Below, one piece after another: positions 1-7,930 of a stretch of 7,930 bases of DNA. The position numbers and the translations under genes were made by a program. This DNA comes from Burkholderiaceae bacterium (GTDB lineage: Bacteria; Pseudomonadota; Gammaproteobacteria; Burkholderiales; Burkholderiaceae), in contig JASLEM010000395.1 in assembly GCA_030151165.1 (NCBI GenBank), forward strand, positions 1-7,930. Direction: 5' to 3'. The stretch's first letter is position 1; each line of letters begins with the position of its first letter. The notes beneath the pieces are model-generated. The model was not told the DNA's origin. It made no database searches and saw nothing but the letters and a program-made list of their open reading frames with translations.

Positions 1-783
1 GCGCGCGCCGGTCTGCTTGGACAGCTTCTGGCCGTCGTCGGCGTAGACCAGCGGCGTGTGCAGGTAGCGCGGCGTCGGCAGGCCGAGCACGCGCTGCAGG
101 TGGATCTGGCGCGCGGTGTTGTCGGCCAGGTCCTCGCCGCGGACGACGTCGGTGACGCCCTGCGCGGCGTCGTCGACCACCACCGCCAGCTGGTACGCCC
201 ACAACCCGTCGGCGCGCCGCAGCACGAAGTCGCCGACGGTGCGCGTGACGTCCTGGTGATGGCTGCCAAGCATGCGGTCGTGCCAGCCGATGACGACGTC
301 GCTGCCGTCCGGGTGGCGCGTGCGCAGGCGCCACGCGGGCGTGCGCCTGAATGCCACCGCAGGCTCGCCGTCGGTCGACGTGAAGCCGTCCGGACAGCAG
401 GTGCCGGGGTACACGCGCTCGACGTGTGCCACGTGCGGGACGCCCGCGCGCGCGAGCGCGGCAGCGATGTCGCTGCGCGAGCAGGTGCACGGGTAGGCCC
501 AGCCGCTGCGCTTCAGGCGCGCCAGCGCGTCCTCGTAGCGGTCGCCGCGGCGCGACTGCCACGTCGGCGGCGCGTCGGGCAGCATCGCGCAGGCCGCGAG
601 CTGGCGCAGGATCCCGGTGTCGGCCTCGGGGATGCAGCGTGGCGTGTCGACGTTCTCGATGCGCACCAGCCACTGCCCGCCGTGCGCGCGCGCGTCGAGC
701 CAGCTCGCGAGCGCAGCGACCAGCGAGCCCGCGTGCAGCAGCCCGGTGGGCGAGGGCGCGAAGCGACCGACGTAGCCGCTCAT
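1..783 (-). CDS. gluQ: Glutamyl-Q tRNA(Asp) synthetase, C-terminus cut by window edge
   Basis: GluQ is a truncated paralogue of glutamyl-tRNA synthetase. It activates glutamate and attaches it to queuosine at position 34 of tRNA(Asp), in the cytoplasm. I read 261 codons from an ATG at 783 with no stop before the edge; the family is usually near 290-300 residues, so only the C-terminal tail is missing. Visible motifs: the N-terminal RFAPSPTG at residues 7-14 followed by HAGS at 17-20 (the HIGH-type signature); a Cys-Thr-Cys pair in AYPCTCSR plus VYPGTCC downstream, matching the zinc site of the family; the conserved QLAVVVDD and [12 protein letters not shown] region; and the KLSK ATP-binding loop at 253-256. 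The segment usually read as RIED is RIEN here. The start lies 4 bp after the stop of the upstream LysR gene, and a GGTGAGG stretch within that gene's end can serve as ribosome site, so translation is probably coupled. Identification is secure. Confidence 0.96.
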
Positions 784-787
784 CGCC

Positions 788-1780
788 TCACCCCGGGCAC
801 AGCCCGCCGCGCATCAGCAGCGCGGTGCGCGTCGTCGGGCTCTCGAGCTGGTTCAGCCACCACTGCAGCGCGAGGCCCTGCGGCGCGCGCTGCGGCTGGG
901 GCGCCGCGGCCGCGCGCCAGCCGTAGGCGAGCGCCACGCTCATGCGCTGGCGCACGACTTCCTTGACGACCAGCCGCCCCGCGTCCACGTGCTCGCGCGC
1001 CAGCACCTCCGGCACGAAGCCGCCGCCGAGGTTCATCATCAGCGCCTCGATCTTGGCCTGCATGCTGCTGACCGTGAGCACGTCCTGCCCGGGCTGCAGG
1101 TTGACCGTCACCGGCGACATGCGCTGCGCCGAGTCGGCGACGGCGATGCCGCGCTGCTCGCGCATCAGCGCGTCCGTGATCGGGCCCTCGAAGCCGGCCA
1201 GCGCGTGGCTCGGCCCGACGACGTAGACGAACGGCGCCTCGCCGAGCGAACGCAGCTCGATGCCGGCGGGCACGGGCGTGTCGAGCGGGATGCCGATCGC
1301 GAGGTCGGCCTGGCCGAACAGCAGCGTCTCGGTCGTGCCGGCCAGCACCTCGGTGCGCAGCCGCAGCCGCGTCCCCGGGCCCGCGCCATTGGCCAGCTCG
1401 GGCGGGCGCAGCGCGTAGAACGCCTCGCACAGCTCGAGCAGCGTGTGGCGCGAGACGACGCCGTCGGCGGCGATCGTCAGCTGCGTCTCCCAGCCGGTCG
1501 ACACGCGGTGCACGCGGTTGGCGACGGCGTCCATCTCCGCGAGCAGGCGGCGGCCTTCGTTGAGCAGCTCGGTGCCGGCGGCGGTGAGGCGCGCCTGGCG
1601 CGAGCTGCGATCGAACAGCAGCACGTCGAGCGCGTCCTCGAGCTGGCGCACGCTGTACGTGAGCGCCGACGGCACCTTGCCCAGCTCGCGCGCGGCCGCG
1701 GCGAAGCTGCCGGTGCGCGCGATGGTGTCCATCATCGTGAGGGCTTCGGGCGTCAGCGCGAAGCGGCGGTCGAGGGTCAT
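788..1780 (-). CDS. LysR-type transcriptional regulator, YhaJ-like
   Basis: A DNA-binding regulator of 330 residues. The winged helix-turn-helix occupies about residues 8-68 ([20 protein letters not shown], then [20 protein letters not shown]), a typical LysR head. The effector domain fills about 95-290. It carries GWETQLTI (96-103), EVLAG (144-148), RGIAVADSA (210-218) and [20 protein letters not shown] (235-254), which I recognise as the pattern of Escherichia coli YhaJ and its Burkholderiales relatives. It is slightly longer than the usual 300 residues because of an extra C-terminal stretch containing WWLNQLE. The ATG overlaps the stop of the upstream hydrolase gene by 4 bp (ATGA), and gluQ follows after 4 bp. 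It therefore sits inside an operon rather than facing a divergent target, the more common LysR layout. The inducer and target genes cannot be told from the sequence; control of its own operon is possible but not shown. Confidence 0.95.
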
Positions 1781-2796
1781 GCGGGCTCCGATGCCGGATG
1801 GACGGCGGGAACAGGGGCCGAGGGCGTCGGCGTCGGCGCGGCCGGCGCGTCGAGCCCGAGGAACGTGCGCACCGGCGCGACGCTCTCCTGCGCGTCCTCC
1901 TCCTGCGGCACGTGGCCGAGGCCGGGGAACACGACGAGCTGGCTGCCCGCGATGTCATGGTGGAACTTCTCGGCGTTGACCGGCGGGATCAGCCGGTCCT
2001 TCGCGCCCCACAGGATCAGCGTCGGCACGTGCAGCGTCCTGATGCGCTCCGGCGCGAGGTCGGTCGGGATCTCGTTGATGCGGATGTTGAGCGCGCGCCG
2101 GTTGCCCTCGCGCATCAGCATCTCGAAGTAGCGGTCGACGAGCTCGGCCGAGACGCGCGACGGGTCGCCGTAGACGTCCTTCACGCTCTCCTCGACGACC
2201 GAGCGCGGCGTCAGGTACTCGCTGACGTGGTTGAACACGGGGATGCGCGCGACCTGGAAGCCGACCGGCAGCTTGATCGGCGTGAAGTTGTAGCCGGACG
2301 AGTCGACCAGGATCAGCTGCGTCACGCGCCCGGGCACCAGCGTCGCGACGCGCCACGCGACCTCGCCGCCGAGCGAGTTGCCGCCGATCGCGAAGCGGCC
2401 GACGTGCAGCGCGTCGACGACGTCGATCGTGAAGCGGGCGAGGGCGTCGCCGCGGTAGTCGTCGGGCGGGTACTGGCCGGCGAACGGGCCGGTGAGGCCG
2501 AAGCCGGGCAGGTCGAACGTGATCACGCGCTTGCGCGAACGCAGCGCGCCGGCCCAGCCCTGCCAGGTGTGCAGGCTCGCCGCGGTGCCGTGCAGCAGCA
2601 CCAGCGGCACCGGGTCGTCGTGCGGGCCCTCGTCGCGGAAGTGCACGAGCTGGCCACGGATCTCCATGAAGTCCGACGGCGGCGGCGCCCAGCGCGCGAC
2701 CAGGCTCTCGACGCTGCGGTCGGGCGAGTACGTGATCGAGATCGCCAGCGCGCTGAGCATCAGGAGGATGCCGATCGCTCGGACCAGGGCTTGCAT
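1777..2796 (-). CDS. Membrane-anchored or secreted alpha/beta-fold hydrolase
   Basis: A 339-residue hydrolase of the alpha/beta superfamily. An uncharged hydrophobic stretch at about residues 4-22 (LVRAIGILLMLSALAISI) is a membrane anchor or uncleaved signal, so the enzyme probably acts on the periplasmic side. The fold is clear: the oxyanion-hole motif LLHGTAA at 67-73; FDLPGFGLT at 94-102; the nucleophile elbow GGNSLGGE with Ser141; the acid in WGAKDRLIPP with Asp267; and the base in PGLGHVPQEE with His295. All three catalytic residues are present, so it should be active. The substrate is unknown; ester or lactone hydrolysis is typical of such proteins, but the motif set does not distinguish esterase, dehalogenase or peroxidase relatives. 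The last 24 or so residues are rich in Pro and Ala and look like an unstructured tail. It starts 19 bp after the trhO stop, with GAGGGA upstream as a possible ribosome site. Confidence 0.93.
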   Translation of the reverse strand: MQALVRAIGILLMLSALAISITYSPDRSVESLVARWAPPPSDFMEIRGQLVHFRDEGPHDDPVPLVLLHGTAASLHTWQGWAGALRSRKRVITFDLPGFGLTGPFAGQYPPDDYRGDALARFTIDVVDALHVGRFAIGGNSLGGEVAWRVATLVPGRVTQLILVDSSGYNFTPIKLPVGFQVARIPVFNHVSEYLTPRSVVEESVKDVYGDPSRVSAELVDRYFEMLMREGNRRALNIRINEIPTDLAPERIRTLHVPTLILWGAKDRLIPPVNAEKFHHDIAGSQLVVFPGLGHVPQEEDAQESVAPVRTFLGLDAPAAPTPTPSAPVPAVHPASEPA

Positions 2797-2815
2797 CGTC
2801 GTCGGTTCCCTCGCG

Positions 2816-3640
2816 TCAGGTGGATGGCGTCTGCGCCGCGGCCGTCGGCGGCGAGGCGACCGCGATGTCCGCGCCGGCGACCGCGCGCTCCGACGGCGGT
2901 GGGCCGCCCGGCGCGAGGTCGGCGGCGACGGTGCGGCGCTCGTCGAACACGAAGCAGTGGCCCGTCCAGCCCGGTGCCGCGCCGCCGGTCGCGGCGAAAT
3001 AGCCGAGTATGCCGCCCTCGAGCTGCAGCACGCCGGGCAGCGCGCGCTCGCCCATGTACAGCGCCGCCTTCTCGCAGCGGATGCCGCCGGTGCAGAAGCT
3101 CACGACGGTCTTGCCCGCCAGCTCGGCGCGGTGCGCGTCGAAGGCGGCGGGGAAGTCGCTGAATTTCTCGAGCCGCCAGTCGAGCGCGCCCTCGAAGGTG
3201 CCGGCGTCGACCTCGAACGCGTTGCGCGTGTCCAGCAGCGCGAGCGCGCGGCCCTCGTCGTCGCGCCCCTGCGCCAGCCAGCGCGCCAGCGTCGCCGGCT
3301 CGACCGACGCCGCGCGCCCCTGCTGCGGCCGGATCGTCGGGTGGTTCATGCGGATCAGCTCGTTCTTGATCTTCACCTTCAGGCGCTTGAACGGCATCGT
3401 GTCGCTGAAGCTGTCCTTCGTCGCGAGGCCCGCGAACGGCGGCTCGGCGTGCAGCGCGCCCGCTACCCAGCCGCGCAACGCCGCCTCCTCGCCCGCGACG
3501 AACAGGTTGATGCCCTCGTGCGCGACCAGGATCGTGCCCTTGATGCCGGCGGCGATCGCCGAGGTTTCCATGCGCTCGCGCAGCGCGGGCAGGTCGTCGA
3601 GCTCGACGAAGCGGTAGGTGGAGATGTTCAGGAACGGCAT
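2816..3640 (-). CDS. trhO: tRNA uridine(34) hydroxylase (rhodanese-domain, YceA/UPF0176 family)
   Basis: TrhO performs oxygen-dependent hydroxylation of U34 in a set of tRNAs, giving 5-hydroxyuridine, the precursor of cmo5U/mo5U wobble bases. I chose the ATG at 3640 because the product then begins MPFLNISTYRFV, the normal family N-terminus, giving 274 residues; the frame stays open upstream to an ATG at 3772, but the extra 44 residues look random and run into the repeat array. The N-terminal acylphosphatase-like domain (about 5-95) holds GIKGTILVAHEGINLFVAG. The rhodanese domain (about 120-230) holds LDTRNAFEVD (136-145), then SFCTGGIRCEK (181-191) with catalytic Cys183, and QLEGGILGYF (206-215). 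After GHCFVFDERR the protein ends in a Pro/Ala-rich tail without the CxxC cysteines found at this end in several relatives. No clear Shine-Dalgarno precedes the start. First gene of the four-gene operon. Confidence 0.94.
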   Translation of the reverse strand: MPFLNISTYRFVELDDLPALRERMETSAIAAGIKGTILVAHEGINLFVAGEEAALRGWVAGALHAEPPFAGLATKDSFSDTMPFKRLKVKIKNELIRMNHPTIRPQQGRAASVEPATLARWLAQGRDDEGRALALLDTRNAFEVDAGTFEGALDWRLEKFSDFPAAFDAHRAELAGKTVVSFCTGGIRCEKAALYMGERALPGVLQLEGGILGYFAATGGAAPGWTGHCFVFDERRTVAADLAPGGPPPSERAVAGADIAVASPPTAAAQTPST

Positions 3641-3684
3641 GGGGCCAGGGATCGCGGCGGCGGGCTTCAGGGGCGCAAACGCGT

Positions 3685-3690
3685 ATTTTG
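3685..3690 (-). promoter_or_regulatory. Candidate -10 element for the trhO operon
   Basis: On the minus strand CAAAAT lies in the only AT-rich patch between the repeat array and the trhO start. It would give a leader of about 35-40 nt. No convincing TTGACA-like -35 is seen 16-18 bp upstream, so this is only a plausible candidate. Confidence 0.25.
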
Positions 3691-3740
3691 AGGCCTCGCC
3701 GCCGCGGCCGCTCGGGGCGCGCTCCCGGTGGCGATGCGCG

Positions 3741-4013
3741 GTGCCGGGTCCGCGAACCCCGGCGATGGACAAAATATCCCCGACGCCGGACTTCCATCAC
3801 CCGTCGCCGGAGCTCCGAGCCCCATCGATGGAGAAAATTTCTCCGGCGATGCTGAAAATAAGTGCAGCGCCGGACAAAAAAGGTGCGGTGTCGGAGCTCG
3901 GAACTCCGGCGTCGGAGAAATTTTGTCGATCGATGCTCAAAAAAAGTGCAACGCCGGGGATATTTTCCCCATCGACGGGGCTCGGAAGTCCGTCGCCGGC
4001 GTTTCGAGCTGCG
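3741..4013. repeat. Degenerate tandem array with exact 21-bp period (about 13 units)
   Basis: Cutting the sequence every 21 bp from 3741 (units at 3741, 3762, 3783, 3804, 3825, 3846, 3867, 3888, 3909, 3930, 3951, 3972, 3993) aligns every unit without an indel. Units begin with an NCG-like triplet followed by ATGG, CCGG, TCGG or ATGC, have a variable core, and end in CCCG, TCCG or GTGCA. Seven units (at 3762, 3825, 3846, 3867, 3909, 3930, 3951) have A/T-rich cores such as GAGAAAATTTCTCC, GACAAAATATCCCC and CTCAAAAAAAG, unlike the GC-rich surroundings. Many units are near-palindromes. Units starting 3846 and 3930 share GATGCT-AAAA-AAGTGCA; units at 3804, 3888 and 3972 share GAGCTC/GGCTCGGAA cores, giving an 84-bp higher-order period. 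The array lies 100 bp upstream of trhO and 88 bp downstream of the stop of the small secreted-protein gene. Long frames cross it in both directions but overlap trhO or have no start signals; I do not call a gene here. Function unknown. Confidence 0.9.
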
Positions 4014-4036
4014 ATGGCGATGTTCGGCGCCGGCCT

Positions 4037-4053
4037 GCCGGGGTTCGCCCGGC
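4037..4053. other. GC hairpin downstream of the small secreted-protein gene
   Basis: GCCGGG and CCCGGC form a perfect 6-bp stem around a 5-nt GTTCG loop, between the stop of the minus-strand gene at 4102 and the repeat array. There is no T-run after it on either strand, so a rho-independent terminator is not supported; it may simply reflect GC richness. Confidence 0.3.
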
Positions 4054-4101
4054 GTCGGCGGCAGGGTGCGCGTCAGCCGCGACCTGGGGGCGTGCGACGA
4101 G

Positions 4102-4527
4102 TCACTTGCGACGACCCGCCGCCGGCGGCGTCCCGATCGCTTCCGCGTCGGGGCATCGGGCGATCGTCCTGACGACCGTGGGCTCGTACGCGCCGGCCTT
4201 GAACTCGCCCTGCGTGACGAGGCTGAGGCACTTCGCCTGGCGCCGATAGTTGAACGTGCAGTAGTTCAGGCCCGTCCCGGAGCACGATTCGACCTCGATG
4301 ATCCCGGCGCGGTACATCTCGCCGGCGTCCGCGAATTGGCTCCAGCGCTCGCCATTGCCGTCTAGCCCATAGGTCTCGCGCGGCTTCCAGCCTTGCGCCA
4401 GCAGCGCCTTGCGCGCCTGCGACAACGCCTCGCCCTTCGTCACCCCGGCCGCGGGCGTACAGGTCGAGAGTGTCGCCAGGCACAGGCCGGCGAGCGTTCT
4501 GGACAGAGGCGTCGACTGGATGGACAT
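4102..4527 (-). CDS. Small secreted cysteine-containing protein, unknown function
   Basis: A 141-residue protein from the ATG at 4527, chosen because AAAGG sits 7 nt upstream and the product then begins with a signal peptide (SRTLAGLCLATL, then TPAAG as a likely cleavage region near residue 28). The frame continues upstream to 4632, but that part is not signal-like. A Cys at 23 in LSTC is not a canonical lipobox, so a lipoprotein is unlikely. The mature part (about 113 residues) has four cysteines at 82, 90, 100 and 125 (VESCSGTGLNYCTFNYRRQA, then KCLSL and ARCPD), enough for two disulfides in the periplasm. It ends in a basic GRRK. I do not recognise a family. It is divergent from the S9 peptidase gene, sharing a 168-bp intergenic region; a functional link (for instance an inhibitor or cofactor of the peptidase) is speculative. 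GC-rich third positions and the signal peptide support a real gene. Confidence 0.8.
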   Translation of the reverse strand: MSIQSTPLSRTLAGLCLATLSTCTPAAGVTKGEALSQARKALLAQGWKPRETYGLDGNGERWSQFADAGEMYRAGIIEVESCSGTGLNYCTFNYRRQAKCLSLVTQGEFKAGAYEPTVVRTIARCPDAEAIGTPPAAGRRK

Positions 4528-4553
4528 CGGAGGGCCTTTGGTTGCGGGTTGCC

Positions 4554-4559
4554 AGCATA
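4554..4559 (-). promoter_or_regulatory. Candidate -10 element for the small secreted-protein gene
   Basis: The minus strand reads TATGCT, about 27 nt upstream of the ATG at 4527, giving a leader near 20 nt. No good -35 hexamer is visible at the expected distance. Confidence 0.3.
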
Positions 4560-4648
4560 GCGGTGCCGCAGATAGCCTCCCGCCACGGTGCGCGCTCGAC
4601 CCGTCGACCCATCGAGCCGGAAGCGCCGCCAACCCGCCCGACCCCTGC

Positions 4649-4654
4649 TACGCT
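4649..4654 (+). promoter_or_regulatory. Candidate -10 element for the S9 peptidase gene
   Basis: TACGCT preceded by TGC resembles an extended -10 and lies 41 nt before the ATG at 4696, giving a leader near 35 nt. No TTGACA-like box is seen upstream. Only a candidate. Confidence 0.25.
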
Positions 4655-4695
4655 TCCGCGCCGCTCCGGCTCAATCCCCAGCCATCGACGACGCC

Positions 4696-6693
4696 ATGCA
4701 TCACGTCCATCGTTCCCTTCGCCTCGGCTTGCTTCGCATGCTGGCGGCGACATTGCTCGCCGCGACAGGCGCGTCGGCGCTGGCCGCCTCGCCGGTGCAG
4801 CGCGACTACCTCGAGCTGGCGATGTCCCCCGACGGCCGCTTCGTCGCGTCGGTCGAAGGCGACGAGTTGCCGACCGGGGGCTCGCCGGTGGTGCGGCAGC
4901 TGGTCATCCGGTCGACGGACGGCCAGGCCGAGCACGTGGTGGCGTTGCCGTGCGGCGCGCAGCCGCAGTGCTGGCCCGGCTCGCCCGCGTGGACGCCCGA
5001 CGGCACGCGCCTCGCCTTCGCGCTGCGCACGCCCGGCAGCCACGCGCGCACGGTGCTCCAGGTGCACGCCGACGGCAGTGGGCTGACGCAGCTGCTGGCG
5101 TTCGACGGCACGATCCAGGGCCTGCGCTACGCGAAGACCGGCGCGCTCGCGATGCTCGCCACGGCGGGCGCCACGAAGGAGCTCGGCGCGACCGAGGCCG
5201 GCGTGCCGGCCACGGGCGACCTCGACGCCGCTTCGCCGTCGCAACGCATCGCGATGCTCGAGCCGGGCCAGGATCGATTGCGCTGGGTCTCGCGCGACGG
5301 CCTCTTCGTCTACGAGTACGACTGGCTGCCCGACGCGAGCGGCTTCGTCGGGACGGCCGCCCCGGGCGACGGCGACCGCAACTGGTGGATCGCGAAGCTG
5401 ATGGCGTTCGACATCTCCGGCGCGGACACGGTTGCCGGCGAGCGCGTGATCTTCGCGCCGCGCGATCCGCGCCAGCAGCTCGCGACGCCGCGGGTCTCGC
5501 CGGACGGTCGCCGCGTCGCCGTCATCGTCGGCCTGATGAGCGACTTCGGGTCGACGGGTGGCGACATCTTCAGCGTGCCCCTCGCGGGGGGCGCCGCGAC
5601 GAACCTCGCGCCGCGGCTGCCGGCCAGCGTCACCGAGATCGACTGGCGTTGCGACGGCCACCTCGCCGCGACGGTGCTGGCGGGCGACCAGATGCAGCGC
5701 GTGGACTTCGGCGACGGCAGCGCGCCGTCGATGGGCCGCGTCGCGTGGTCGGCCGCGGTCGACCTCGGCCAGGCCAGCCTCGCCGGCTGCGCGAGCCGTC
5801 GCGAGGCGGCGGTGATCGAGGGCTTCGATGCCGCGCCCGAGATCCAGGTTCGCGAGGGCGGCGCCTACACACCGCTGACGCACCGCAACGCCGCCCTGGC
5901 GAGCCGGATCGAGGCCCACAGCGTCACGTGGCACGACGACGGCTTCACGCTGCAGGGCTGGCTGCTGCTGCCGCCGAAATCCGCGCGGCCCGCCGGCGCG
6001 CGGCTGCCGATGATCGTGCGCATCCACGGCGGGCCGGCCGCCGCGTCGCGGCCATCGTTCGTCGGGCCGGGGCTCAAGAGCCGGCTGCTCGATCGCGGCT
6101 ACGCGATCTTCCTGCCGAACCCGCGCGGCAGCTTCGGCCAGGGCGACGCGTTCACGCAGGCCAACGTGAAGGACTTCGGCGGCGGCGACCTGCGCGACAT
6201 CCTCGCGGGCGTCGACGCGGCCATCCAGGCGTGGCCCATCGACGGCGACCGGCTGGGCATCACCGGCCACAGCTACGGCGGGTTCATGACGATGTGGGCC
6301 GTGACGCAGACGAGCCGCTTCAAGGCCGCGGTCGCCGGCGCGGGCCTGGCGAACTGGCAGTCGTACTACGGCGAGAACGACATCGTCGAATGGATGACGC
6401 CGTACTTCGGCGCGAGCGTCTATGCCGACCCGGCGGTCTATGCGAAGTCGTCGCCGATCAACTTCATCACGCGCGTGCGGACGCCCGTCCTCAGCTACGT
6501 GGGCGAGGCCGACATCGAATGCCCGGCGCCTCAGACGCTGGAGTTCGGTCGCGCGCTGCACGTGCTGGGCGTGCCGTCGGCGACGGTGGTCTATCCGGGC
6601 GAGGGCCACGCGATCCGCGATCCGGCGGCGCTGGCCGACATCGAGCAGCGCACGCTCGCCTGGTTCGACCGCTACCTCGCGCCGGCGCGTTGA
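4696..6693 (+). CDS. Secreted S9-family serine peptidase (prolyl-oligopeptidase type)
   Basis: A 665-residue peptidase of the prolyl oligopeptidase clan (dipeptidyl/acylaminoacyl peptidase group), probably periplasmic or exported. The ATG at 4696 gives a basic n-region (HRSLRLGLLR), a hydrophobic core and ALAA cleavage near residue 30; the open frame begins at 4588, but its first 36 codons are not signal-like. Residues about 35-400 form a beta-propeller with SPDG/TPDG blades at 44-47, 101-104 and 268-271. The catalytic domain (about 430-660) shows RIHGGP (HGGP at 444-447, oxyanion), FLPNPRGSFGQG, the nucleophile GHSYGGF with Ser526, the acid in VGEADIECP with Asp606, and the base in GEGHAI with His638. 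All three residues are intact. Cys86 and Cys92 could pair in a propeller loop. No Shine-Dalgarno is evident before the start. It is transcribed alone and converges on the membrane-protein gene 45 bp downstream. Exact peptide specificity is not deducible. Confidence 0.95.
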   Translation: MHHVHRSLRLGLLRMLAATLLAATGASALAASPVQRDYLELAMSPDGRFVASVEGDELPTGGSPVVRQLVIRSTDGQAEHVVALPCGAQPQCWPGSPAWTPDGTRLAFALRTPGSHARTVLQVHADGSGLTQLLAFDGTIQGLRYAKTGALAMLATAGATKELGATEAGVPATGDLDAASPSQRIAMLEPGQDRLRWVSRDGLFVYEYDWLPDASGFVGTAAPGDGDRNWWIAKLMAFDISGADTVAGERVIFAPRDPRQQLATPRVSPDGRRVAVIVGLMSDFGSTGGDIFSVPLAGGAATNLAPRLPASVTEIDWRCDGHLAATVLAGDQMQRVDFGDGSAPSMGRVAWSAAVDLGQASLAGCASRREAAVIEGFDAAPEIQVREGGAYTPLTHRNAALASRIEAHSVTWHDDGFTLQGWLLLPPKSARPAGARLPMIVRIHGGPAAASRPSFVGPGLKSRLLDRGYAIFLPNPRGSFGQGDAFTQANVKDFGGGDLRDILAGVDAAIQAWPIDGDRLGITGHSYGGFMTMWAVTQTSRFKAAVAGAGLANWQSYYGENDIVEWMTPYFGASVYADPAVYAKSSPINFITRVRTPVLSYVGEADIECPAPQTLEFGRALHVLGVPSATVVYPGEGHAIRDPAALADIEQRTLAWFDRYLAPAR

Positions 6694-6738
6694 CGCGTTG
6701 ACGGGCGGGCGCGCGAATGCGTCACGCCGCGTTGCCGA

Positions 6739-7320
6739 TCACGCCGCCGGGACGGCCGCTCCCGGCACGCGCCAACCCTCGACGAGCGCCCACACGGCGG
6801 CGATCGTCATGACGAGGCTTCGCACGAAGTGGGCGGCCTGCAACTGGAAATAGGCGTCGTCGGTGAAGCCGTGATCCTGGAAGTCGCCCTGCGCGGAGGC
6901 GGCCCACGGCGTGCTGGCGATCGAGACGACCAGCAGCGTCGAGACGCCCCACAACGCACGGCGCGAGAGCCGGGCCGGCGCGCTCCACAACAGGAGCGCC
7001 CACACCAGGCAGGTCGCGCCGTACGGCAGCACCACGATGGGCAGCCGGCGGGTGTAGCCGCGGCTGAAGGCCCGCATCGCGGCGTCCCCGAGCGCGGCCA
7101 TGTCGACGTGGATGCGGTACACGTTGAAGAACAGCACCCAGCAGATGCCGGCGGACGACCAGAGCAGCGCGACGCCGATCGCCTGCAACGGGCTCGCGGC
7201 GTCGGCGCCGACCCAGGCGGGCGGCCGACGCCGCCCCACGAGCGTGACGGCGATCGCCCCGGCATAGAGCAGCACGGTGGCCGCCAGCGTGGCGAGGAAG
7301 AACAGGAAATAGATCGGCAT
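6739..7320 (-). CDS. Five-helix integral membrane protein, unknown function
   Basis: A 193-residue protein from the ATG at 7320, with AGGA six nt upstream. Five hydrophobic segments are visible, at about residues 3-28 (IYFLFFLATLAATVLLYAGA), 46-67, 93-112, 121-141 and 164-183. A basic RRR follows the first helix. The central part contains YRIHVDMAAL and YTRRLPIVVLPYGA, and the last helix is preceded by QAAHFVRS. These are loosely reminiscent of small uncharacterised bacterial membrane proteins with a conserved His and Tyr-x-x-Arg pattern, but I cannot name the family. A GTPW...QGDFQDHGFTDDAY-type loop between helices 4 and 5 is acidic. An overlapping ATG at 7327 opens a different frame with arginine-rich, non-hydrophobic content and is a shadow. 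It converges on the peptidase gene; no clear terminator is seen in the 45-bp gap. Confidence 0.85.
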   Translation of the reverse strand: MPIYFLFFLATLAATVLLYAGAIAVTLVGRRRPPAWVGADAASPLQAIGVALLWSSAGICWVLFFNVYRIHVDMAALGDAAMRAFSRGYTRRLPIVVLPYGATCLVWALLLWSAPARLSRRALWGVSTLLVVSIASTPWAASAQGDFQDHGFTDDAYFQLQAAHFVRSLVMTIAAVWALVEGWRVPGAAVPAA

Positions 7321-7397
7321 GGCGCATCCTGGCGGGAGTGGAGCGGAGCGGGCACGGCCGGTGTCGCGTGACGGATGCGGGTCACGGGCCCCGGGCA

Positions 7398-7438
7398 GGG
7401 GCGACGACGGGGGCGTGTCATTCGATGCTAGTCGCCCC
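7398..7438. other. 8-bp perfect inverted repeat in the 7321-7497 intergenic region
   Basis: GGGGCGAC (7398-7405) and GTCGCCCC (7431-7438) are perfect inverted copies around a 25-bp, less GC-rich spacer. The pair lies downstream of the gene ending at 7498 and upstream of the membrane-protein gene. It could be an operator or stem-loop, but GC-rich DNA produces such pairs by chance. Nothing else stands out in this 177-bp region. Confidence 0.25.
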
Positions 7439-7497
7439 GGCGTCGCGTGGACATCCCTGGAATGGACCGAGGCACCTGTTAGCGATCGCGACCGTCG

Positions 7498-7930
7498 TCA
7501 CGCTCCGCCGAGAAGCGCGACCCACGCGGCGAGGCACGCCATCTTGTGTTCCTTGCGCCAGGGCGGCCCGGCGGGCTTGCCCAGCTGGCGCAGCCGCTCG
7601 TCGAGCGCGTCGGCCGTCATGCCGACGATCGTCGACGCCGTCTCGGGCAGCGACTTCTCGTCCAGTTCGACGGCGCGCAGGCCGACCCGGCCGCACGCGA
7701 AGCGCAGCGCCTCGCGCACCGCGAGCCCTTCGATGACCGGCGGGTGTTCCGGCGCGCTGAGGGCGTGCGCCAGCAGGTCGTTCATCCAGCCGGCGCGGTT
7801 GACGAGCAGCGCCGCGACGACGGGCGCGTGCCAGTCGTCGCGCAGGTGTCGGACGAGGTCGTCGAGCCGGTGCGCGGCGAGCGCGTCCTGCCGCGCGCGG
7901 GCTTCGGCGACGGCGGCCACGGCGGCGGCC
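7498..7930 (-). CDS. Unrecognised protein, N-terminus beyond window edge
   Basis: The frame is open from the stop at 7498 to the right edge, about 144 codons. A GTG at 7920 could start a 140-residue protein, but upstream codons are also open and Ala-rich, and no ribosome site can be judged, so I treat it as partial. Third positions are strongly GC, and the content looks protein-like: a helical, Arg/Ala-rich start (EARARQDALAAHRLDDLVRH), HAPVVAALLVNRAGWMNDLL, REALRFACGRVGLRAVELDE, and a conserved-looking end, GKPAGPPWRKEHKMACLAAW. No signal peptide or membrane segment is seen in the visible part, suggesting a soluble protein. I do not recognise the family. Confidence 0.6.
   Translation of the reverse strand, partial: AAAVAAVAEARARQDALAAHRLDDLVRHLRDDWHAPVVAALLVNRAGWMNDLLAHALSAPEHPPVIEGLAVREALRFACGRVGLRAVELDEKSLPETASTIVGMTADALDERLRQLGKPAGPPWRKEHKMACLAAWVALLGGA

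Follow-up and report, generated by a model that had tools for sequence, protein, structure and literature searches.

What kind of element keeps an exact 21-bp spacing over many consecutive units, when the letters of those units differ widely? The question is raised by a 7,930-bp stretch of DNA from a Burkholderiaceae bacterium (contig JASLEM010000395.1 of assembly GCA_030151165.1, positions 1 to 7,930; henceforth the window), where an earlier note had described a degenerate tandem array between two genes and had offered two explanations, a seven-residue protein repeat or a series of DNA sites on one face of the helix. The analysis reported here favors the latter: the noncoding DNA nature of the element is well supported, and we assign a probability of roughly 0.4 to the reading that it is a noncoding, interspersed intergenic element composed of helically phased dyad sites for a putative dimeric DNA-binding protein.

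The ORF list and Pfam searches identify in the window a partial class I tRNA-synthetase-like protein at its edge, a LysR regulator, an alpha/beta hydrolase, a UPF0176/rhodanese protein (which we take to be TrhO), a small protein without a Pfam family, an S9 peptidase and two proteins without a Pfam match. The array lies between the rhodanese gene and the ORF of the small protein, the tested part of which (4102-4536) has no Pfam match. A promoter search of 3600-4150 found none, and the same interval contains one terminator-like site against 0.8 expected. The features on which the following account depends are:

2816-3640, minus strand: flanking gene for the UPF0176/rhodanese protein (Pfam UPF0176_N and Rhodanese), 5' end towards the array
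3752-4048, no strand: whole element, an ungapped imperfect palindrome of 297 bp centered at 3900.0
3752-3763, plus strand: left terminal inverted repeat GCGAACCCCGGC, 12/12 complementary to 4037-4048
3762-4013, no strand: array of twelve 21-bp units without indels, majority unit GCGACGGAGAAAATATCTCCG (from autocorrelation, unit profile and unit statistics)
3825-3908, no strand: first 84-bp superunit, four units (lag 84 = 0.577)
3909-3992, no strand: second 84-bp superunit, four units (lag 84 = 0.577)
4037-4048, minus strand: right terminal inverted repeat GCCGGGGTTCGC (letters of the plus strand), pairing with 3752-3763
4102-4632, minus strand: flanking ORF for the small protein of unknown family (ORF list), stop codon 54 bp from the element

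Period and units of the array

Autocorrelation, the check that the earlier note had called for, bears out the strict period: identity at lag 21 over 3741-4013 is 0.508, as against 0.258 ± 0.029 in dinucleotide-preserving shuffles, none of 2000 of which reaches the observed value, and across lags 2 to 99 no shuffle exceeds 0.412. At lags 42, 63, 84 and 105 identity is 0.468, 0.505, 0.577 and 0.488, respectively, with lag 84, the strongest of the lags tested, marking a superperiod of four units. On a unit profile trained on the twelve units of 3762-4013, these same units score 11.8 to 28.0, whereas 3741-3761, which was left out of training, scores -0.6. The array described previously is thus real, but it counts twelve units rather than about thirteen.

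Mean pairwise identity between units is merely 0.512 (range 0.19-0.86) and 92 of 252 positions depart from the consensus, yet not a single indel separates them, just as had been claimed. The note had set A/T-rich cores against GC-rich surroundings; G+C is 60.6% in the element (3752-4048) and 72.7% in the window. Tandem Repeats Finder left the array region unreported even at score 30.

Symmetry of the element

Inspection of the sequence revealed features absent from the earlier note, namely palindromic units, the 84-bp superperiod and a palindrome encompassing 3752-4048 with 12-bp terminal inverted repeats. The large palindrome is 61.5% complementary over a half-length of 148, compared with 30.1 ± 4.6% for all centers in the window, and the next best center (50.7%) likewise falls within the array. 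The terminal inverted repeats are perfect and share the center of the array palindrome; beyond them complementarity drops to 6/21.

Within the units, 65.5% of cells pair around position 13, as opposed to 54.2 ± 4.3% after shuffling of partners, which gives so high a value in 2 of 500 trials, and controls slid by one to three columns give 28 to 60% pairing. A second dyad 10.5 bp from the first follows automatically from a single dyad combined with a 21-bp period. Pairing at center 1.5 equals the shuffle mean and is no better than the shuffles because the letters there are fixed.

The locus in relatives and searches for further copies

The best segment of the window rhodanese is 85% identical in the soil bacterium Scleromatobacter humisilvae BS-T2-15 (Burkholderiales, Sphaerotilaceae) and 82-84% identical in two MAGs. 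DNA similarity in these genomes spans the left genes and ends at window positions 3643, 3641 and 3701 (loci L001, L003 and L002, respectively). None of these three closest trhO loci has an array within 1.5 kb upstream, the period statistic there being 0.08 to 0.11 against 0.218 in the window. The earlier note had made the standing of the array depend on its presence at the same locus in close relatives; it is indeed missing there, but arrays of the same period occur elsewhere in S. humisilvae, itself one of the three, and in a further relative, G294. Hence, absence from the locus points to a dispersed element, and the autocorrelation stands. As a separate observation, the DNA of the right flank (4050-6700, including the S9 peptidase) was unmatched in the four closest genomes in a search run without a positive control, and the array may lie at the edge of a species-specific segment.

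Sequence similarity retrieves little. A BLAST search of 399 family genomes with the whole element, a query that included the GC-rich right end, with two candidates scored per genome, gave listed matches at query positions 228-297, that is, at this right end, except in S. humisilvae. With the array alone as query, 7 of 40 relatives had matches with E up to 0.2 and 3 of 399 genomes of the order (two candidates scored per genome) had matches with E up to 0.005, which left S. humisilvae, G406 with a different 21-bp repeat (see below) and G570. The G570 match (L212 1501-1530; 30 bp, 93%, E 1.4e-5) lies inside a helicase-like gene and was judged a coincidence; its frame reads SMEKLSPAML where the plus frame of the window array reads SMEKISPAML. 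The S. humisilvae match, a remnant at C10:37162-37187 (26 bp, 92%, E 0.0024 for one genome), is the one sequence match that links the window array to those of its relatives. When this remnant served as query, 13 of 60 genomes responded at E up to 0.1, which led to G294; among the matches listed (20 places), 11 loci were checked for period and four were clear, all of them in G294 and two of them being one array. With a G294 copy as the later query, matches at E 0.01 came from 3 of 40 genomes, namely G294 itself, S. humisilvae and G015, of which the G015 match looks like chance. A sequence-only covariance model of unit pairs found 9 of 200 family genomes at E 0.1, a number below chance, and these were single places without the period; in four close genomes it returned the known S. 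humisilvae place plus others resembling chance. A plasmid or phage origin was rejected as no match was found, the plasmid search covering 72,556 records at E 0.1.

The period itself was sought with a sequence-blind scan (threshold 0.14) covering 1.2 Mb of S. humisilvae, wherein two long arrays, on contigs C2 and C1, rank first and third at period 21. Places passing the threshold number 32 at period 21, 29 at 18, 19 at 24, and 2, 1, 1 and 0 at 19, 20, 22 and 23, respectively; the threshold is not specific. Three of the other 30 period-21 places were read and look coding, and the 30 have a G+C of 0.62 to 0.82 versus 0.54 by the same count for the two arrays. Conversely, two remnants in S. humisilvae score 0.095 and 0.121, under the threshold, and would both be missed by the scan alone. 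A scan of 414 kb of G294, on contigs partly chosen for holding copies, yielded 12 places including the six copies described below, and the one other place that was read looks coding. On other contigs, represented by 77 loci (L004-L080, 1.23 Mb), two places pass (0.148 and 0.142), both of which look coding, and in 398 kb of the relative G002 nine pass, the best four of the nine looking coding. Two stretches with neighboring periods were also observed in S. humisilvae: a very strong 18-bp periodicity (statistic 0.50) within long open frames at L155 2698-3004, possibly a coding repeat, and a 19-bp periodic stretch near 10177 of L279 (statistic 0.198).

Dispersed copies in G294

G294 was listed early among the relatives of S. 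humisilvae, but it is not very close, given that its rhodanese-gene match is only 65% identical. Full copies, each about 230 bp long, occur one apiece on six of its contigs: the query copy and five others that are 76-83% identical to it. The order of units is identical across the copies, and between gap columns 77 and 280 of their alignment lie 201 columns with 93 variable positions and no indel. Their ends are not sharply defined: the copies on C404 and C80 align over 458 bp. A further candidate on C574 (47 bp) looks like chance and was rejected. Additionally, a match on C168 sits at a contig end, and 366 bp of its flank are 98% identical to the flank of C411; to judge from this identity, the two may represent a recent duplication or one place assembled twice.

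Variation among the copies depends on the phase within the 21-bp unit (p 0.0034, column permutation), whereas codon phase has no such effect (p 0.16). Phases 1, 3 and 15 vary least, followed by 12 and 17; among them, 15/3 and 17/1 form symmetric pairs about a dyad at 19.5, reading G.A....T.C. Around this dyad 69.8% of cells pair over 48 units, above all 300 among-unit shuffles, and as in the window the best dyads occupy two centers 10.5 bp apart. The conservation is partly asymmetric, in that phase 12 has low variation but its mirror phase 6 has high variation, and phases 14 and 4 differ. On the whole, a largely symmetric conservation of this kind is broadly the pattern that contacts by a protein dimer could be expected to leave. 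The indel-free 21-bp phase, the phase-dependent substitutions and the dyad-symmetric units of G294 together lend support to the earlier suggestion of DNA sites on one helix face.

The same symmetry could alternatively reflect hairpins formed in a transcript, i.e., a structured RNA or single-stranded DNA element such as a 3'-end mRNA stabilizer or an attenuator. Thus, 3741-4060 as a single DNA strand folds at -94.2 kcal/mol versus -67.4 ± 4.5 for shuffles (z -5.9), a stop codon precedes the element by 54 bp, and the within-unit covariation score in the window is reached by only 2 of 500 shuffles. However, the structure slid by -2 columns scores higher than the structure in register (0.381 versus 0.305), the window has no Rfam match (0 above the gathering score), and it is hard to see what a period of two helical turns would do in RNA. 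Further, covariation in the six G294 copies does not rise above shuffles: compensatory change at the unit palindromes amounts to 2 two-sided pairs versus 1.8 expected, with a score reached by 153 of 500 shuffles, and the covariation term of the consensus fold is unfavorable. This lack of excess compensatory change argues against hairpins as the selected form, and we regard an RNA-level element as quite improbable.

Arrays and remnants in S. humisilvae

The two long arrays of S. humisilvae (G001), at C2:139645-140000 and C1:163310-163600, both have a lag-21 z of 7.5 (letter shuffles) and share the 21-bp period, but their unit letters are unlike those of the window. They align with each other over 134 bp at 74%, ungapped and on the same strand, with a G+C of 0.56-0.57. 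Their dyads are weak: 0.45 and 0.42 at centers 10.5 apart in C2, and 0.46 and 0.44 in C1, where the centers are not 10.5 apart. As they are spanned by ORFs of 103 aa and at least 181 aa, these two arrays are not called intergenic.

These arrays also bear upon the possibility that A-tracts spaced at two helical turns curve the DNA intrinsically, without a protein dedicated to it. In the window, 7 of the 12 units contain a run of at least four A or T, recurring at 21 bp, as this would predict; the other five lack one, and in the long S. humisilvae arrays, whose period is the same, such tracts are few. Accordingly, curvature is graded as more improbable still than an RNA element.

Of the two remnants, that on C10 has lag 21 as its best lag, with 0.381 over 147 bp and 0.390 over 126 bp (values attained in 0.35 and 0.15% of letter shuffles, respectively) and 0.365 over an 84-bp stretch (reached by 3.5%). 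The second, at C1:1260152, likewise has lag 21 as best, at 0.47 over 147 bp, a value reached by 0 of 2000 letter shuffles. Both share their position with a G294 array, the flanks being 86-89% identical. The gene that the C10 remnant follows at its 3' end encodes a solute-binding protein (by Pfam), and in G294 the same gene (88.5% over 1397 bp) is followed by the C208 array. The C1:1260152 remnant and the G294 C328 array likewise adjoin a common gene, AraC-like by translation, with a flank 88.9% identical over 307 bp. Across species, similarity between the arrays themselves is confined to short pieces, e.g., 40 bp at 82.5% between C1 and C328. Within S. humisilvae the two remnants have 62 bp in common at 90%, plus a neighboring 134 bp at 77%. 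With two pairs as its basis, this likeness looks like within-genome homogenization.

The neighboring 134-bp stretch constitutes a second repeated module near both remnants (L151 16914-17045 and L285 10356-10483). A shorter related piece (53 bp at 75%) is found beside the G294 C151 array, and it resembles pieces beside C208 and C411.

In terms of placement, the distance from a stop codon to the array, with coordinates taken by eye, is about 15 to 105 bp in the window, on S. humisilvae C10 and on G294 C328, C208, C404 and C411; the G294 C151 array lies 277 bp from the left stop. The window and its relatives have in common the period, the dyads, the place between genes and the A/T-rich cores, and the 84-bp superperiod ranks high also in the C2 and C328 arrays. 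At the level of unit profiles, three comparisons were made: the window array resembles that of G294 with p 0.013, and shows no resemblance to the two long S. humisilvae arrays (p 0.83 and 0.95). Alignment of subfamilies by dyad type, done by eye, is less good, and the best register sets the A/T cores within half a base of each other. The kinship of the window array with those of its relatives rests mainly on architecture, the link by sequence being weak, and common descent is likely.

Coding potential

A heptad protein repeat, the other explanation in the earlier note, has some formal attractions. The period is divisible by three, a plus-strand frame (3618-4172) is open across the array with start codons in frame, a minus-strand frame is open too, and each long S. 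humisilvae array is spanned by an open frame. Heptad-like open frames are known to arise from 21-bp arrays in Bacteroidetes. However, the first start codon of the minus frame comes only at 3800, inside unit 2, the array frames have no Pfam match, and two sets of word-sharing candidates from the protein collection, 72 and 76 in number, yielded none that scored as a homolog. At the protein level, 7 of 60 related genomes have weak matches, at eight places, where the period statistic is only 0.06 to 0.12 and has its highest value away from the matched place. On these grounds (no Pfam match, no scored homolog and no periodic protein-level match) the protein repeat was rejected for the window array.

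The relatives lead to the same conclusion. For the G294 arrays a protein repeat was rejected in view of variation without a codon-phase effect and the lack of homologs: five of the six frames contain a stop in at least one copy, and in the sixth the third codon positions are, by arithmetic on the phase data, the least variable. In the aligned long arrays of S. humisilvae the open frames are found on different strands; stops interrupt each of the three plus frames of C2 whereas one plus frame of C1 is open, so that no reading frame is common to both. A protein repeat is therefore scarcely tenable.

The 21-bp repeat of G406 (L170 1533-1622), shared with L213-L226, is of a different kind, forming a heptad-repeat N-terminus (e.g., NASLSKK) on what is, by assignment from sequence alone, a GntR-like regulator. 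Strong DNA matches to it were found in 14 of the 40 genomes searched, and the heptad reading is in frame in 10 of 15 rows, with L220 apparently shifting frame inside the repeat.

Comparison with known elements

The earlier note knew of no named element that fits, and this remains the case: for each of the families compared (REP/BIME, MITE, iteron and protein repeat), at least one defining feature was tested and is missing here. REPs are described in two accounts (PMC3733652, PMC2817692) as extragenic, palindromic and interspersed sequences, mostly downstream of genes, with several types per genome in some species. They are 20-40 bp long with near-identical units, most of them bear a GTAG or CGTC tag, and usually more than 100 copies are present per genome. 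The window element is comparably extragenic, palindromic and placed at gene ends, and the copies in its relatives are interspersed. However, its units abut at exactly 21 bp and differ at about half their letters, and full arrays number six in G294 as opposed to the usual >100 REP copies. GTAG and CTAC are absent from 3752-4048, while CGTC occurs at three places and GACG at two, and hence neither serves as a tag once per unit.

A second comparison is with plasmid iterons and partition-site arrays, in which tandem protein-binding sites, with units that differ little from one another, follow at close to two helical turns next to Rep or Par genes. The window array resembles them, by description and not by sequence, in its tandem sites about two helical turns apart. 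Its neighbors, in contrast, encode a rhodanese, the small protein of unknown family and an S9 peptidase, and none of the eight neighboring proteins tested has a rep-type Pfam family.

ERIC and Correia are among the small mobile repeats of bacteria. For others of this kind (RUP, YPAL), a review (PMC2229807) gives terminal inverted repeats, foldback and lack of coding capacity as characteristic, and nowhere does it use the words ‘tandem’ or ‘21 bp’. This suggests the most serious alternative to phased protein-binding sites, a nonautonomous, MITE-like foldback repeat in which the palindrome and terminal inverted repeats would serve a transposase and the 21-bp period would be a by-product of growth of the interior via tandem duplication. 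Consistent with it are the perfect 12-bp terminal inverted repeats on the palindrome center, the foldback structure (strand folding z -5.9) and, for arrays of the same architecture as that of the window, the six dispersed G294 copies, five of which are 76-83% identical to the query copy. On the other side, exact target-site duplications of 2-15 bp were sought and the longest found in the window is the 2-bp CC/CC, the interior is a 21-bp-phased array unlike that of MITEs, and the ends of the G294 copies are blurred, as seen in C404 and C80. Further, the two positions common to G294 and S. humisilvae suggest residence rather than jumping, and neutral by-products should gain indels, of which the 201 G294 columns have none. 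We consider a mobile foldback repeat rather unlikely, albeit the foremost of the rivals, which in order of their odds are the mobile foldback repeat, the RNA element, curved DNA and the protein repeat. An open-licence literature search returned no paper on helically phased 21-bp arrays.

A model of phased dyads and its implications

The favored reading, that of phased dyad sites, takes its cue from the period. As 21 bp corresponds to two turns of B-DNA, all dyads of an array come to lie on the same face of the helix. Mainly because of the pattern of phase conservation in G294, we propose that each 21-bp unit, a degenerate palindrome, would be bound by one dimer of a putative DNA-binding protein. 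Neighboring dimers could then touch and coat the array as a cooperative filament, which might act as a chromosome-organizing, boundary or insulating site near gene ends; with regard to the protein, its cooperativity and its cellular role, this is what we infer from the architecture. The phase-12 asymmetry in G294, along with the weak dyads and spanning ORFs of the long S. humisilvae arrays, speaks against the dimer model.

A bolder extension, which we deem unlikely, is that phased-dyad arrays constitute a new class of chromosomal element, wherein a filament of the putative dimeric protein would place selection on the spacing and leave the letters free. The letters would then be homogenized within each genome together with the protein, akin to a bacterial counterpart of rapidly evolving satellite or centromere DNA.

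If the favored reading is true, spacing and not sequence would be the conserved property of such arrays, with the consequence that similarity searches miss them, as Tandem Repeats Finder did and BLAST nearly did. Further, array-like DNA that lies beside the same genes in related genomes, but with its letters turned over, would provide a natural test of the co-evolution of a protein and its sites. The arrays would also offer a test system for the within-genome homogenization of short bacterial repeats.
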